NCBI GenBank assembly: GCA_023663655.1
Contig: JAMPGZ010000001.1
Location: forward strand, 439,861 to 503,860
Source: Lachnospiraceae bacterium
GTDB taxonomy: Bacteria; Bacteroidota; Bacteroidia; Bacteroidales; Muribaculaceae
Direction: 5' to 3'
Length of the DNA: 64,000 nt
The stretch's first letter is position 1; every line of letters begins with the position of its first letter. The position numbers were made by a program, and so were the translations under genes. The notes under the pieces are model-generated. The model worked only from the letters and a program-made list of their open reading frames with translations, ran no database searches and was not told where the DNA came from. This document shows positions 37,478 through 44,914 of this stretch, piece after piece.

Positions 37478-37756
37478 CTATTTATCGCCGTAATGCCCTT
37501 TAAGAGAAACAACGGTGACGATCACCTTTTCATCCTCAATAGTGTAAATCATCCGTGAACTTTTGTCTATCCTACGGCTCCAATAGCCTGACATATCGCC
37601 TTTAAGCTGTTCCACTTGTCCGGTGCCGGTTGTAGGATGCTCACGCAGCTCGTCAAGCAAACTAAAAATCTTTTTTAGAATTTTCTTTTGTCCGGACTTC
37701 ATCCATTCATCGAGATGTCGGTGTGCATCCTTTGAAAATTCTATATCGTATATCAT
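37478..37756 (-). CDS. YoeB/Txe-type toxin (ribosome-dependent mRNA interferase)
   Basis: A 92-residue RelE-superfamily toxin. It has KIFSLLDELREHP, the central GTGQVEQLKGDMSGYWSRRI with the Glu and Arg expected in YoeB, MIYTIE, and a C-terminal GHYGDK whose His88-Tyr89 match the catalytic His-Tyr end of YoeB. It starts with an ATGA overlap on the antitoxin stop. Confidence 0.9.
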   Translation of the reverse strand: MIYDIEFSKDAHRHLDEWMKSGQKKILKKIFSLLDELREHPTTGTGQVEQLKGDMSGYWSRRIDKSSRMIYTIEDEKVIVTVVSLKGHYGDK

Positions 37757-38052
37757 AATCCTAATGCTTTTCTCAGTTTCTCACGATCATAGACAATTGT
37801 CTCTCCCCGCTTCATCTGCTCTATACCCCGCAACACAGATGCCATGTTTTCAGGGTCGTCAAACCAAGGATCGCCGGAAGGTGATGGGTTCTCACTCACA
37901 TCCACCGTGATAGAGTCGGCTTTGGCTATTAGAATTGTCTCGATGTACTTTTTCAGGCTTTTGCCCTGAGCCACCGCCATCATGGAAAGTTTTTGGAGGG
38001 TTTCAACTGGCAAGTCGATGTTCTTGCGCTTGATATTCAATGCTGTTGCCAT
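37753..38052 (-). CDS. Cognate antitoxin, probably ribbon-helix-helix or related
   Basis: A 99-residue protein from the ATG at 38052. A longer in-frame start at 38103 would run through the operator repeats and is rejected. The N-terminal part (NIDLPVETLQKLSMMAVAQG, then KSLKKYIETIL) looks like a beta-strand followed by two helices of an RHH DNA-binding domain. The acidic, Pro-rich middle (ENPSPSGDPWFDDPENM) and C-terminal helix would wrap the toxin. It is first in the operon and translationally coupled to the toxin. Confidence 0.75.
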   Translation of the reverse strand: MATALNIKRKNIDLPVETLQKLSMMAVAQGKSLKKYIETILIAKADSITVDVSENPSPSGDPWFDDPENMASVLRGIEQMKRGETIVYDREKLRKALGL

Positions 38053-38174: not shown

Positions 38175-38224
38175 ACACCCGCTTCTCGATCCAGATACCT
38201 GAGTTTCGGAGATGTGCGGTGATA

Positions 38225-38260
38225 CAAAAAGCGTCATGAACCGCATTTGGCTCATGACGC
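38225..38260 (-). terminator. Terminator of BspA-like gene 1
   Basis: On the minus strand a 9-bp stem (GCGTCATGA, 38260-38252, with 38239-38231) is followed by TTTTTG. The same hairpin is repeated after copy 2 at 41220-41254. Confidence 0.75.
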
Positions 38261-38287
38261 ATCGCTTACGCGTAAATCATAGTATCA

Positions 38288-41086
38288 TTATCTGATGACA
38301 ATCTTCTCGGCTTTGTTGCCATGACGGCGGACATAAACGCCCGGGGTCTGCGGACGCTTGTCAAGACGGAGTCCCGAGAGAGTGTACCATATTTCGGCAC
38401 CCTCCACATCGTCGCCTTCAATAGCGTCGATGTGCGATGTCTTCATGTTGATAACGAGCTTGCCCACAGCGGCAGCAGGGAGAAGCACGGAGTTGCCCTC
38501 CATCTGCGAGGTGATGTCCTCGCCGTTGAGAGTCACAGCCTCGATTTCATCAAGGGGCACATTGTTGATGAACACGCGGTAGCCCTTCTTGTTGGACTCC
38601 GAGTTCAACTGGGCGCCGTCAAACAGAGCGGCGAAATGCTTGCCGCTCGCAAGGTCGGACAACTGAGTGGCACGGGCACGGCTCATGACACGCACAGTGG
38701 CGCTTTCATCATAGTCCTTGACAACTTCCTTAGCCTCCTCACTTTCGATTATATCCTTATACTCATCCTCAGGCAGCATGGTCACATCTCCGTCACCGTT
38801 GATCGCCACGTCGAGAGTGTTCTCAAGATGACCGAACGCACCCCACTGCGGAGCGTTAAGATAAGAGAAGAATGATTGAGCAGGAACTGTCAGCGTACAC
38901 TTCTGAGTCTGAACTCCGCTGAATGCGCCGGTTGCAGCCGACGGAGCATTGATGGCACGGCAGCTCAGCGCGCGCAGACGTGAAGAGTTGGGCATAATTC
39001 TGGTGTTCACTTCAGACAATGTCGATGGAAGGCTGAGTGATACGATATCTCTTGCTTCTGAAAGGAATCCAGTGGGGATGGATGTCAGATTTTCGCCGAG
39101 CGAAAGCACACGCAAAGGCGATTCTAGGAAAGTCTCTTTTCCAAGCACTTTAACCGTACCGGGTATCTCCACGCTTTCTACAGCGGTAACCGCCAACACT
39201 CGGTCTCTGAGCTTTTCAAGCCGCTGAGGCAGAAGAACTGTTTTCAGATTGTGACAGTCATAGAATGTATGATCCATATCAGTCACACGGCAATTGCTGA
39301 AATCAGCATATTCAAGAAGGTCGCAATACATAAATGCACTGGACCCAATTGACTCGAGCCGATCATTGGCAATCAAAAACCTAATTGAAGAACAGCCATA
39401 AAAAGTCAAATAACCGATACTCCTTAAAGATGAGGGCAAATGGTCGATGGTGATACTTCCACATTCCTCAAATGCATTGTCACCCACACTTTCAAGAGTT
39501 TCCGGAAGTTCTTCAAGCGACATTGAGTAACATCCGCTGAAAGCCAAATTTCCGATACTCCTGAGATGGCTCGGAAGCACCATTTTCTTCAGGTTCTTGA
39601 ATCCTTGGAACATTCCTGAGGGTATCTCAGTAAGGTCAGTGTCTCTGAGATCAAGAGCCGAAAGACTGTACATGTTTTCTGTGATAACACGAATATCTGT
39701 CTCGCTCAATGTGCCATGAACCGTAAGCGAGCTTATGCGCGACGGAAGCTGACCCGATGCCTCGTATATAGCCTCAGCAAGAGCTTTTTTACCATCGAGA
39801 GTCACCTCAACCACCGACTCCTTCTCACCTACGACATTAAATATGTTCCAACGCGGATGTTTCTCATAAAGCTTCTTAGCCTCATCCTTCACAATGAGGT
39901 TGATCTTCCCGGCAGCATCGGCATTCAACGGGAAATCGCCCGATACCACCGGAGGAGTAGCTGCATCACAGGTAATCAGCACCAGCTCGCTCATATCCAT
40001 CGCATCCTTAGCTATATTCCGAACAGAAGTTCCGAGATGGACCACACGCGGCTTTCCAAGTGTGCCGGTAGTAAGCTCGGTCACTCCATCGCCTGTCGAG
40101 ATTGAAAGTATGCGTGTATCAAAAAAAGCATTCTTTCCAATTTCAGTAACGGTTGAAGGAATCTCCACTTCGGTCACACTACGGCTCGCATTGCCGGCAC
40201 AGCTATAAAAAGCGTTCTGCCCGATTTTTTTCAGATTTGCAGGAAGTTTTATATCCTTAAGTTCATAACAACAATAAAAAGCTCTTTCGGGAATCTCTTC
40301 GATACCATCACCAATACGCACACTTATCATAGCAGCAGACCCAAAACAATTCGGGTCGATGTATTCAACCGAATTGGGAATCACAAGATTCCTTACGCCA
40401 TGTTTCCCTTCACCACTTGCTTTTCCTGGGAGTGCATGCTCATAGATACGCTTCAAACTTGGCGGTAGAGTAATGTTTATGAGGGCATAGTTCAAGTAAA
40501 AGCACTCTCTGCCGAGCTCTTCAAGCCCCTCGGGAAGATACACTTCTCTCAGCACAGGGCATGAGAAGAAAGCCTTTGCAGGAAGCGACTTCACCGCCGA
40601 GAATAGAGTGGCACGCTCAAGAGATTCATTGTCGCTGAACGCTCCGATGCCGATAGATTCTGTCGACAATGGCAGAGTGACCTTTTTCAATTGCGGCATT
40701 TTGGCAAAAGCATAGTCGCCGATGGTGAGAAGCTGACTTGGAAGCTCGTCAATATCAAGCAACGGGCAATTGTAGAATGCATAGTTGCCTATGTCGGTGA
40801 TTGTGCGGGGCAACTCGATAAGAAACAGGTTGGGCGATGCTTCGAAAGCGCTCGTCTCGATCTGGCTCACGGTGTAGGATGCACCGCCGTAAGTCACTGT
40901 TTCAGGAATAAATGCCATCTCAATTTCGCGAGCGGCGGGCTTGACTACCGACACCGCCGGAGACTGGTCTTCGACAACGGCATAACGGATGCCCTCATGC
41001 TCGAAAACAGTCCCTGTCTGCGGACGCATTGCCGCAAACGCCGGGATTGACAACAATCCCGCCATTAGAATCAGAAAATGTTTCAT
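38288..41086 (-). CDS. BspA-like leucine-rich-repeat surface protein, copy 1
   Basis: A 932-residue exported protein. The ATG at 41086 gives a signal peptide (KHFLILMAGLLSIPAFAA). Two blocks of LRR_5/BspA-type repeats (units such as YTVSQIETSAFEASPNLFLI and LKKIGQNAFYSCAG) occupy about 60-380 and 440-720. A non-repeat C-terminal part ends with EIWYTLSGLRLDKRP and GVYVRRHGNKAEKIVIR, a T9SS/anchor-like tail seen in Bacteroidales surface proteins. BspA-like proteins bind host matrix or other bacteria in some species; the ligand here is unknown. It is a tandem duplicate of the next gene. I see no strong promoter box upstream. Confidence 0.8.
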   Translation of the reverse strand: MKHFLILMAGLLSIPAFAAMRPQTGTVFEHEGIRYAVVEDQSPAVSVVKPAAREIEMAFIPETVTYGGASYTVSQIETSAFEASPNLFLIELPRTITDIGNYAFYNCPLLDIDELPSQLLTIGDYAFAKMPQLKKVTLPLSTESIGIGAFSDNESLERATLFSAVKSLPAKAFFSCPVLREVYLPEGLEELGRECFYLNYALINITLPPSLKRIYEHALPGKASGEGKHGVRNLVIPNSVEYIDPNCFGSAAMISVRIGDGIEEIPERAFYCCYELKDIKLPANLKKIGQNAFYSCAGNASRSVTEVEIPSTVTEIGKNAFFDTRILSISTGDGVTELTTGTLGKPRVVHLGTSVRNIAKDAMDMSELVLITCDAATPPVVSGDFPLNADAAGKINLIVKDEAKKLYEKHPRWNIFNVVGEKESVVEVTLDGKKALAEAIYEASGQLPSRISSLTVHGTLSETDIRVITENMYSLSALDLRDTDLTEIPSGMFQGFKNLKKMVLPSHLRSIGNLAFSGCYSMSLEELPETLESVGDNAFEECGSITIDHLPSSLRSIGYLTFYGCSSIRFLIANDRLESIGSSAFMYCDLLEYADFSNCRVTDMDHTFYDCHNLKTVLLPQRLEKLRDRVLAVTAVESVEIPGTVKVLGKETFLESPLRVLSLGENLTSIPTGFLSEARDIVSLSLPSTLSEVNTRIMPNSSRLRALSCRAINAPSAATGAFSGVQTQKCTLTVPAQSFFSYLNAPQWGAFGHLENTLDVAINGDGDVTMLPEDEYKDIIESEEAKEVVKDYDESATVRVMSRARATQLSDLASGKHFAALFDGAQLNSESNKKGYRVFINNVPLDEIEAVTLNGEDITSQMEGNSVLLPAAAVGKLVINMKTSHIDAIEGDDVEGAEIWYTLSGLRLDKRPQTPGVYVRRHGNKAEKIVIR

Positions 41087-41219
41087 AAATGTAATTAATG
41101 TATGATTGGTAAAAATAGATTTCATGCAGCGTGCATCTCCGAACACTCGTCCTGAAATGGCGCACGTAAAGCGGCACCGACTCTGCGAGCCGACACAATG
41201 ATGGTATATTTGATACGGG

Positions 41220-41254
41220 AAAAGCGTCATGAACCGTATTTGGCTCATGACGCA
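41220..41254 (-). terminator. Terminator of BspA-like gene 2
   Basis: The same 9-bp stem as at 38225-38260 (41254-41246 with 41233-41225), followed on the minus strand by TTTTCCC. It lies in the short gap upstream of gene 1. Confidence 0.65.
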
Positions 41255-41280
41255 TCGCTTACGCGTAAATCATAGTATCA

Positions 41281-44073
41281 TTATCTGATAATAATCTTCT
41301 CGGCTTTGTTGCCATGACGGCGGACATAAACGCCCGGAGTCTGCGGACGCTTGTCAAGACGGAGTCCCGAGAGAGTGTACCATATTTCGACACCCTCCAC
41401 ATCGTCGCCTTCAATAGCGTCAATGCTCGATGTCTTCATGTTGATTACGAGCTTGCCCACAGCGGCGGCGGGAAGCAGCACGGAGTTGCCCTCCATCTGT
41501 GAGGTGATGTCCTCGCCGTTGAGAGTCACAGCCTCGATTTCATCAAGGGGCACATTGTTGATGAACACGCGGTAGCCCTTCTTGTTGGACTCCGAGTTCA
41601 ACTGGGCGCCGTCAAACAGAGCGGCGAAATGCTTGCCGCTCGCAAGGTCGGACAACTGAGTGGCACGGGCACGGCTCATGACACGCACAGTGGCGCTTTC
41701 ATCATAGTCCTTGACAACTTCCTTAGCCTCCTCACTTTCGATTATATCCTTATACTCATCCTCAGGCAGCATGGTCACATCTCCGTCACCGTTGATCGCC
41801 ACGTCGAGAGTGTTCTCAAGATGACCGAACGCACCCCACTGCGGAGCGTTAAGATAAGAGAAGAATGATTGAGCAGGAACTGTCAGCGTACACTTCTGAG
41901 TCTGAACTCCGCTGAATGCGCCGGTTGCAGCCGACGGAGCATTGATGGCACGGCAGCTCAGCGCGCGCAGACGTGAAGAGTTGGGCATAATTCTGGTGTT
42001 CACTTCAGACAATGTCGATGGAAGGCTGAGTGATACGATATCTCTTGCTTCTGAAAGGAATCCAGTGGGGATGGATGTCAGATTTTCGCCGAGCGAAAGC
42101 ACACGAAGCGGCGATTCAAAGAAAGTCTCTTTTCCGAGCACTTTCACCGTACCGGGTATCTCCACGCTTTCTACAGCTGTAATCGCCAACACACGGTCTC
42201 TGAGCGATTCAAGACGCTGAGGCAGAAGAACTGTTTTCAGATTGCGGCAGATATAGAATGTGTAATCCATATCAGTCACACGGCAATTGCTGAAATCAGC
42301 ATATTCAAGAAGGTCACAACTGCCAAATGCTGCAGTGCTAATTGATTCAAGTCGGTCATTGGCAATCATGCTTCTTATTGAAGAACAACCGTTAAATGCA
42401 CGATAACCGATGGTTCTCAATGATTCAGGAAGATGATTGATCGTGATGCTCGCACAGTCCAAGAACGCCTCCTTACCAATGCTTTCAAGAGTTTCCGGAA
42501 GTTCTTCAAGCGACATTGAGTAACATCCGCTGAAAGCCAAATTTCCGATACTCCTGAGATGGCTCGGAAGCACCATTTTCTTCAGGTTCTTGAATCCTTG
42601 GAACATTCCTGAGGGTATCTCAGTAAGGTCAGTGTCTCTGAGATCAAGAGCCGAAAGACTGTACATGTTTTCTGTGATAACACGAATATCTGTCTCGCTC
42701 AATGTGCCATGAACCGTAAGCGAGCTTATGCGCGACGGAAGCTGACCCGATGCCTCGTATATAGCCTCAGCAAGAGCTTTTTTACCATCGAGAGTCACCT
42801 CAACCACCGACTCCTTCTCACCTACGACATTAAATATGTTCCAACGCGGATGTTTCTCATAAAGCTTCTTAACATCATCCTTTACAATGAGATTGATCTT
42901 TCCCGCTGCATCAGCATTCAACGGGAAATCGCCCGATACTACCGGCGGAGTAGCTGCATCACAGGTAATCAGCACCAGTTCGCTCATGTCCATCGCATCC
43001 TTAGCTATATTCCGGACAGAAGTTCCGAGATGCACAGCACGCGGCTTTCCAAGTGTGCCGGAAGTAAGCTCGGTCACTCCATCACCTGTAGAGATTGAAA
43101 GTATACGTGTATCCAAAAAAGCATTCTTCCCTATTTCAGTAACGGTTGAAGGAATATCTACTTCTGTCACGCTGCGGCTTGCATTACCGGCACAGCTATA
43201 AAAAGCGTTCTGCCCTATTTTTTTCAGATTTGCAGGAAGTTTTATATCCTTTAATTCATAGCATAGATAAAAAGCTCCTTCGGGAATCTCTTCGATACCA
43301 TCACCAATGCGCACACTTATAAAAGCAGCAGAAGAAAAACATCTCGGGGCGATGTATTCAACCGAATTGGGAATCACAAGATTTCTCAAACCTTTCTGTT
43401 CGGGAGCATACCCTGGTATCGCTTTAGCATAAATTCGCTTTAAGCCGGGAGGAAGGATAAGTTCCGTGATGGCATAGTCATTGAGAAAGCACTCTCTGCC
43501 AAGCTCCTCAAGCCCCTCGGGGAGATACACTTCCCTCAGCACAGGGCATGAGGAAAAAGCCTTTGCAGGAAGCGACTTCACAGCCGAGAAGAGAGTGGCG
43601 CGTTCAAGAGCTTCATTGTCGCTGAACGCTCCGATGCCGATAGATTCTGTCGACAATGGCAGAGTGACCTTTTTCAATTGCGGCATTTTGGCAAAAGCAT
43701 AGTCGCCGATGGTGAGAAGCTGACTTGGAAGCTCGTCAATATCAAGCAACGGGCAATTGTAGAATGCATAGTTGCCTATGTCGGTGATTGTGCGGGGCAA
43801 CTCGATAAGAAACAGGTTGGGCGATGCTTCGAAAGCGCTCGTCTCGATCTGGCTCACGGTGTAGGATGCACCGCCGTAAGTCACTGTTTCAGGAATAAAT
43901 GCCATCTCAATTTCGCGAGCGGCGGGCTTGACTACCGACACCGCCGGAGACTGGTCTTCGACAACGGCATAACGGATGCCCTCATGCTCGAAAACAGTCC
44001 CTGTCTGCGGACGCATTGCCGCAAACGCCGGGATTGACAACAATCCCGCCATTAGAATCAGAAAATGTTTCAT
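41281..44073 (-). CDS. BspA-like leucine-rich-repeat surface protein, copy 2
   Basis: A 931-residue paralogue of the gene downstream, with the same signal peptide, repeat layout and C-terminal tail. Differences cluster in two LRR stretches: around residues 155-230 (for example ECFLNDYAITELILPPGLKR against ECFYLNYALINITLPPSLKR) and around 585-700. The remaining regions are almost identical, which points to a recent duplication or to gene conversion of the ends. The ATG at 44073 is supported by the signal peptide. The DNA before it lacks a perfect TAnnTTTG box (TATTTTTA is present). Confidence 0.8.
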   Translation of the reverse strand: MKHFLILMAGLLSIPAFAAMRPQTGTVFEHEGIRYAVVEDQSPAVSVVKPAAREIEMAFIPETVTYGGASYTVSQIETSAFEASPNLFLIELPRTITDIGNYAFYNCPLLDIDELPSQLLTIGDYAFAKMPQLKKVTLPLSTESIGIGAFSDNEALERATLFSAVKSLPAKAFSSCPVLREVYLPEGLEELGRECFLNDYAITELILPPGLKRIYAKAIPGYAPEQKGLRNLVIPNSVEYIAPRCFSSAAFISVRIGDGIEEIPEGAFYLCYELKDIKLPANLKKIGQNAFYSCAGNASRSVTEVDIPSTVTEIGKNAFLDTRILSISTGDGVTELTSGTLGKPRAVHLGTSVRNIAKDAMDMSELVLITCDAATPPVVSGDFPLNADAAGKINLIVKDDVKKLYEKHPRWNIFNVVGEKESVVEVTLDGKKALAEAIYEASGQLPSRISSLTVHGTLSETDIRVITENMYSLSALDLRDTDLTEIPSGMFQGFKNLKKMVLPSHLRSIGNLAFSGCYSMSLEELPETLESIGKEAFLDCASITINHLPESLRTIGYRAFNGCSSIRSMIANDRLESISTAAFGSCDLLEYADFSNCRVTDMDYTFYICRNLKTVLLPQRLESLRDRVLAITAVESVEIPGTVKVLGKETFFESPLRVLSLGENLTSIPTGFLSEARDIVSLSLPSTLSEVNTRIMPNSSRLRALSCRAINAPSAATGAFSGVQTQKCTLTVPAQSFFSYLNAPQWGAFGHLENTLDVAINGDGDVTMLPEDEYKDIIESEEAKEVVKDYDESATVRVMSRARATQLSDLASGKHFAALFDGAQLNSESNKKGYRVFINNVPLDEIEAVTLNGEDITSQMEGNSVLLPAAAVGKLVINMKTSSIDAIEGDDVEGVEIWYTLSGLRLDKRPQTPGVYVRRHGNKAEKIIIR

Positions 44074-44610
44074 AAATGTAATTAATATATGATTGGTAAA
44101 AATAGATTTCAGACCGCACGCCTCTCCGAACTCCCGTTCCGAAATGGCACACTTAAAGCGGCACCGACTCTGCGAGCCGACACAATGATGGGATATTTGA
44201 TACGGGGATTTCCCGTGACTGCACATTTCGCCCATAGCAACCGTTGATGCCTTGGATAAAATGTTGCAGACGGGACACAACATAAATACACTTAAACTTC
44301 AAGGAAGGAGAGCCGTCCCATTACTTTCAGCTGATAGCCGAATTGCAATTGTAATGTAACCTTCCGTCCTCCCCGCAGGGAGGATTTGCAGTACAAATTT
44401 ATCATCTCCACCCTTATATTTCCAAATATTTCACTGTTTTTAACACAGATTCACACCCACCCTACCTCAACACAAAAGCACACCACCCCCGTGAGGACAG
44501 CACCAAAGCTCGCAGTGCTAAGGATACAACATCTAAGTCCGCAGCTGGCAGTGCCGAGAGGCACGCAGCCGTCTATATCCCCGGCTGCCGCGAAGCAAAG
44601 CCGGAAAAAA

Positions 44611-44817
44611 TGAATCCGAATGGATTCATCATTCGGTAGCCGTGTGCCGAGCCAAAGGCGAGACCCCCGGAAAGGATATGACGTGGTTATTGAATCTGAA
44701 AGATTCATCTTTAGTCAATCGGTTGTCTTTATACACGGATGATTCTTTCAGAATCAAAATTATATCGCATTATTTCCGTGGGTCTCGCTACGCTCGGCCC
44801 ACGGCTACCGAATGATG
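44611..44817. repeat. Nested inverted repeats in a gene-poor stretch
   Basis: The gap 44074-44914 has no convincing gene. Left arm 44627-44666 and right arm 44780-44817 are imperfect reverse complements sharing GGTAGCCGTG and CGAGACCC-type blocks. Between and beside them are three small hairpins of the form TGAATCY...RGATTCA (44611-44628, 44691-44707, 44740-44756). The right arm alone also folds (44776-44782 with 44798-44804) around a TCGCTACGCTCGG core like the REP elements at 49.9-50.05 kb. A further GC hairpin is at about 44372-44387. The role is unknown. Confidence 0.6.
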
Positions 44818-44899
44818 TTTCCTGCGGAAACACTGTGTAATTTTTCTTGGGGTGGTGCAAGATCAGCGCATTTTTGTCTTACACGACCGTTTTTTTTTG

Positions 44900-44907: not shown

Positions 44908-44914
44908 CACCACG

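Follow-up and report, generated by a model that had tools for sequence, protein, structure and literature searches.

In the window, which is the whole stretch of 64,000 nt that was analysed, two BspA-like leucine-rich repeat (LRR) genes lie in tandem on the minus strand, and their alignment is a mosaic of identical and strongly diverged segments. Both open reading frames are intact. We consider it probable that this is an acquired pair of anciently diverged copies, patchily homogenised by gene conversion within the genome. Gene conversion is a known process, and the pair is an orderly example of it rather than a new system.

In an alignment of 2993 columns, the two tandem units differ at 215 and are 92.8% identical. 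The sole indel (6 nt, in the first divergent island) is in frame. The short sequence GATAC is present at the left end of the units (38221-38225), at the unit junction and at the right end, which suggests that the duplication may have originated through short homology. Both proteins consist of two blocks of 22-24-residue IGxxAFxxCxxLxxIxLP repeats. They scored 313-318 bits against LRR_5, for which the gathering cutoff is 27.7, and the TpLRR repeat pattern was present. Their N-termini (MKHFLILMAGLLSIPAFA) looked like signal peptides by eye, and NCBIfam reported no sorting domain in the pair. Structural relatives were PDB 4fs7 (E = 6e-40), 4gt6, 4cp6 (PcpA) and 6mlx (TpLRR). The products are predicted to be secreted or surface BspA-like proteins (LRR_5, Treponema pallidum-type LRR), presumably located at the surface, and their role would be that of an adhesin or ligand-binding protein. 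They resemble known BspA-like surface proteins, such as Tannerella BspA, in their repeat blocks, their signal-like N-terminal sequence and their LRR_5 match (E about 1e-95), although their whole-protein relatives are only 41-44% identical.

Table 1. Features of the tandem bspA locus and its surroundings (positions are those of the window).
Feature	Position	Strand	Remarks
bspA copy A	38288..41086	-	932 aa, starts MKHFLILM; two LRR_5 regions; Pfam LRR_5 E=5.6e-96; downstream copy, proximal to the final terminator
bspA copy B	41281..44073	-	930 aa; upstream copy; Pfam LRR_5 E=1.1e-94
Tandem unit A	38227..41219	.	2993 bp
Tandem unit B	41220..44206	.	2987 bp
Identical tract 1	38508..39112	.	605 bp; matches copy B at +2993
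Identical tract 2	39489..39878	.	390 bp; central, separating the two LRR islands
Identical tract 3	40625..41099	.	475 bp; signal peptide and N-terminus
Divergent island 1	40391..40498	.	Codons 197-232, LRR domain 1; 51/108 differ; holds the 6-nt in-frame indel
Divergent island 2	39323..39488	.	Codons 533-588, LRR domain 2; 59/166 differ
Divergent 5' leader patch	41125..41166	.	12/42 differ; outside the coding region
Bacteroidetes-type promoter-like site	44394..44430	-	TTTG ... TAAATTTG; upstream of copy B only
Structured leader RNA motif	44262..44366	-	Upstream of copy B only; putative pseudoknot; covariation
Terminator hairpin after copy A	38231..38260	-	With TTTTT
Terminator hairpin after copy B	41224..41253	-	12-bp; U-tract of only four Us where the units meet; coordinates carried over from copy A with the 2993-bp offset
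Txe/YoeB-type toxin	37478-37756	-	In the islet missing from congeners, beside the bspA pair
RelB-like antitoxin	37753-38049	-	Same islet as the bspA pair

The divergent islands were called by a three-state HMM segmentation of the differences between copies A and B. The states corresponded to identical tracts with 0-0.2% difference, to intermediate stretches with about 2-9% and to islands with 29-47%. Per base, there were at least three tiers of divergence (0, 0.05-0.09 and 0.36-0.47), the non-coding leader and terminator included. Such a series of tiers fits repeated conversion events of different age superimposed on an old duplication. When the differences were placed randomly 10,000 times, the longest identical run was 168 bp, compared with the observed runs of 605, 475 and 390 bp. 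With only same-amino-acid codons considered, a run of 197 was observed, against at most 126 in permutations. Uniform divergence along the copies was ruled out by this permutation of difference positions. The original prediction of a mosaic of two near-identical copies was thus borne out, and the 390-bp identical tract in the middle comes in addition to it. Its further statement that divergence is confined to the repeat blocks holds for most of the differences: two wider blocks, 39113-39488 and 39879-40624, contain 187 of the 215 (87%). However, the other 13% lie outside both blocks, the second block reaches into the inter-domain linker, and the 5' leader patch and the 3' end also differ. The terminator and the upstream DNA had been described as almost identical; the 3' end, including the terminator (38227-38507), differs at 14 of 281 bases, and the leader patch at 12 of 42.

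Synonymous sites showed the same mosaic. There was 1 synonymous difference in 350 sites in the three identical tracts, compared with 48.8 in 211 in the shoulders and 46.5 in 65 in the islands (pS = 0.23 in the shoulders, 0.72 in the islands and 0.15 in the C-terminal end). Purifying selection alone was ruled out as the cause of the identical tracts, since synonymous sites are identical as well. As the identity holds at these sites too, recombination is, on the sequence evidence, required to account for the mosaic. The identity runs between these diverged paralogues were longer than chance, synonymous sites included, which is the pattern expected of gene conversion. The earlier suggestion that gene conversion or recombination keeps the ends alike is therefore supported by a synonymous divergence that falls to about zero in three tracts but reaches saturation in the islands. 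We infer that the route of homogenisation was intragenomic conversion.

It seems that the islet with the BspA-like pair was acquired by horizontal transfer and that copies A and B diverged long ago, after an old duplication. Non-reciprocal gene conversion between the copies would then have acted time and again on three regions, namely the N-terminus, the middle between the domains and the C-terminal third, and overwritten them; the two short LRR islands would be what is left of the old divergence. The islands might have been kept by selection against homogenisation, or by too little sequence identity for recombination. With such long identical tracts, the layout could hypothetically yield chimeric variants: a crossover within the middle 390-bp tract might join the LRR-1 island of one copy to the LRR-2 island of the other. 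The mosaic was analysed in one genome, and no orthologous pair was found in any of the genomes searched.

The LRRs hold most of the amino-acid differences, as would be expected if diversifying selection had acted on the repeats after a recent duplication. However, synonymous divergence has reached saturation in these islands, and dN/dS was 0.15 in the islands, 0.16 in the shoulders and 0.15 in the 3' end. As dN/dS in the islands equals that in the shoulders, the islands are not under a distinct selective regime; judged from the alignment, they seem to be the oldest sequence left rather than a fast-evolving one. We also surveyed which face of the LRR varies, using the repeat register IGxxAFxxCxxLxxIxLPxxLxx and counting only the diverged stretches. 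Amino-acid differences were found at 27 of 70 exposed GxxAFxx convex/side positions, 6 of 42 on the concave strand and 4 of 71 in the ascending loop, so that the changes cluster at convex/side positions and not on the concave strand. An AlphaFold2 model, which was weak overall (pLDDT 53; LRR blocks mostly 60-85) and was used solely for strand positions within the LRR blocks, agreed with this register. The convex/side bias argues against a ligand-driven pattern without excluding one. The original prediction that ligand-facing repeats diversify was supported by neither the dN/dS values nor the distribution of changes. The synonymous divergence largely refutes the diversifying-selection reading, which we regard as hardly credible. 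Outgroup polarisation of the 60 amino-acid differences gave 11 matches of the outgroup to A only and 19 to B only, which was not decisive.

A mosaic of this kind could also result from import from another strain. In that case, the tandem duplication would be recent, the identical tracts would be young duplicate sequence, and the divergent segments would be alleles that one or both copies acquired by homologous import from other strains or species. Mosaic allelic exchange of this sort is documented for Bacteroidales surface proteins in Porphyromonas gingivalis (PMC5266723). The island dS, about 2.3 (a value that is saturated and biased upward, since the island borders were picked by divergence), exceeds the dS of 1.0-1.4 obtained for rsmI and deoC when this genome was compared with its closest congeners, as expected of foreign alleles. 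However, at least three independent events of differing divergence would be needed, including those for the 5' leader and the shoulders, and no donor was found in 397 sampled family genomes, where the best relative had about 44% amino-acid identity. We consider import a serious rival, though the less probable of the two readings. Still less probable is an artefact of assembly or strain mixture, in which two alleles of a single-copy gene were joined in tandem or the islands were mis-phased between copies. The draft comprises 45 contigs, and short reads may be too short to span the identical tracts (390-605 bp), so phasing of the islands is not guaranteed. On the other hand, the junction is clean, each of the three borders bears GATAC, unit-specific SNPs flank the junction on both sides, the contig is 543 kb long and the reported contamination is 0.02%. 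An artefact thus seems very improbable, and ancient divergence with patchy intragenomic conversion is the reading we prefer.

Horizontal acquisition is suggested by the genomic context. In three congeners (G008, G006 and G002), the syntenic site lacks bspA, and the two genes that flank it here, one a phospholipase-A-like outer-membrane gene (36441) and the other at 44912, are direct neighbours. GC3 was 0.51-0.52 in the bspA pair versus 0.63-0.72 in four flanking genes. No relatives at E<=1e-60 were found in 13 other genomes of the genus, and the best relatives among 397 family genomes were about 41-44% identical over the whole protein and belonged to other genera. GTDB contigs and viral contigs contained no close relatives, and plasmid relatives of the pair were all below 60% identity. 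The islet was probably acquired horizontally, judging from these comparisons. None of six relatives inspected had tandem copies, so they offer no independent parallel. In one related LRR gene region (G027, L095 12579-13268), we observed an internally amplified array, in which a 276-nt repeat is present in seven overlapping copies at intervals of 69 nt; 69 nt corresponds to one 23-residue LRR. No third copy or donor of the islands was found elsewhere in the genome with the queries 39100-39500 and 43270-43520; a template repeat of a diversity-generating retroelement was rejected on this result. Between the leader and the next gene, at 44580-44820, there are imperfect inverted-repeat stretches (CATCATTCGGTAGCCGTG, CACGGCTACCGAATGATG), possibly a small mobile or palindromic element.

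Similar mosaics have been described in other systems. In the mammalian tandem LRR paralogues TLR1 and TLR6, gene conversion maintains identity in one part and divergence persists in other LRRs, and this conversion occurred independently across nine species (PMC2077338). The tandem LRR mosaic is shared with the bspA pair, although the TLRs are unrelated animal genes and one genome is considered here. In P. gingivalis, allelic exchange and domain rearrangement in surface proteins (PMC5266723) likewise produce mosaic Bacteroidales surface-protein genes, but there the exchange takes place between strains and not inside a tandem pair. Prokaryotic paralogues can undergo long-lasting concerted evolution, which homogenises copies within a genome, mostly in key-pathway genes over deep time (PMC6053082). 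The bspA pair shares the intragenomic homogenisation, but no orthologous pair was found against which concerted evolution could be shown formally. Our pair illustrates, in a gut-type Bacteroidales genome, how tandem surface-protein genes can combine domain-sized identical stretches with two old LRR variants, and the locus is suited to testing intragenomic conversion against import with strain genomes.

The two copies differ in their upstream regions. The duplicated unit stops short of the promoter-like site and the leader motif, and copy A therefore has neither. Exact -7 matches with an upstream TTG occur in the window at a rate of 0.125/kb. Copy A comes after the terminator of copy B, and the U-tract of this terminator is cut short where the two units meet. 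As the ORF of copy A is intact, this copy may be expressed by read-through or may be renewed by conversion. The pilE/pilS and vls systems combine an expression site with silent cassettes. The bspA pair resembles them in having one copy with a promoter-like site and leader and one without, and in its conserved flanks and variable centres. Unlike them, it comprises two copies only, and copy A is a full intact ORF. A two-gene variation device, in which copy B would be expressed from its promoter with a structured leader RNA, promoterless copy A would be a conversion-maintained donor, and recombination in the identical tracts would swap LRR islands into copy B, seems to us quite improbable.

The leader RNA, strongly covarying and unmatched in Rfam, may offer greater novelty than the gene pair. 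Its core (GCAATTCGG/GCTGAAAG/TGGGACGGCTCT) is conserved. Among 397 family genomes, 21 carried the motif, with 26 sites in total, compared with 0 sites in a reversed-pattern control. Two helices covaried strongly, with 97.5% of cells paired over the whole structure. Changes on both sides were seen in 8 pairs and 33 cells, a level reached in 0 of 500 shuffles. The loop of the downstream hairpin (GUCCC) is complementary to a conserved GGGAC and might form a pseudoknot, but this pairing is mostly invariant and hence lies outside the covariation test. Single-sequence folding of the copy in the window was no more stable than shuffles (z 0.52), so the case for the structure rests on covariation. Rfam 15 gave no match at gathering score in the leader region and, for the local stretch, no plausible match even with E allowed to reach 5. 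With stricter filters, an order-wide search of 393 genomes detected the motif at E<=0.001 in only two, one of them this genome. The motif may act as a leader or riboswitch-like element, which is one possibility among others. Among the 24 sites with a same-strand ORF downstream, eight were followed by a gene encoding a BspA-like protein.
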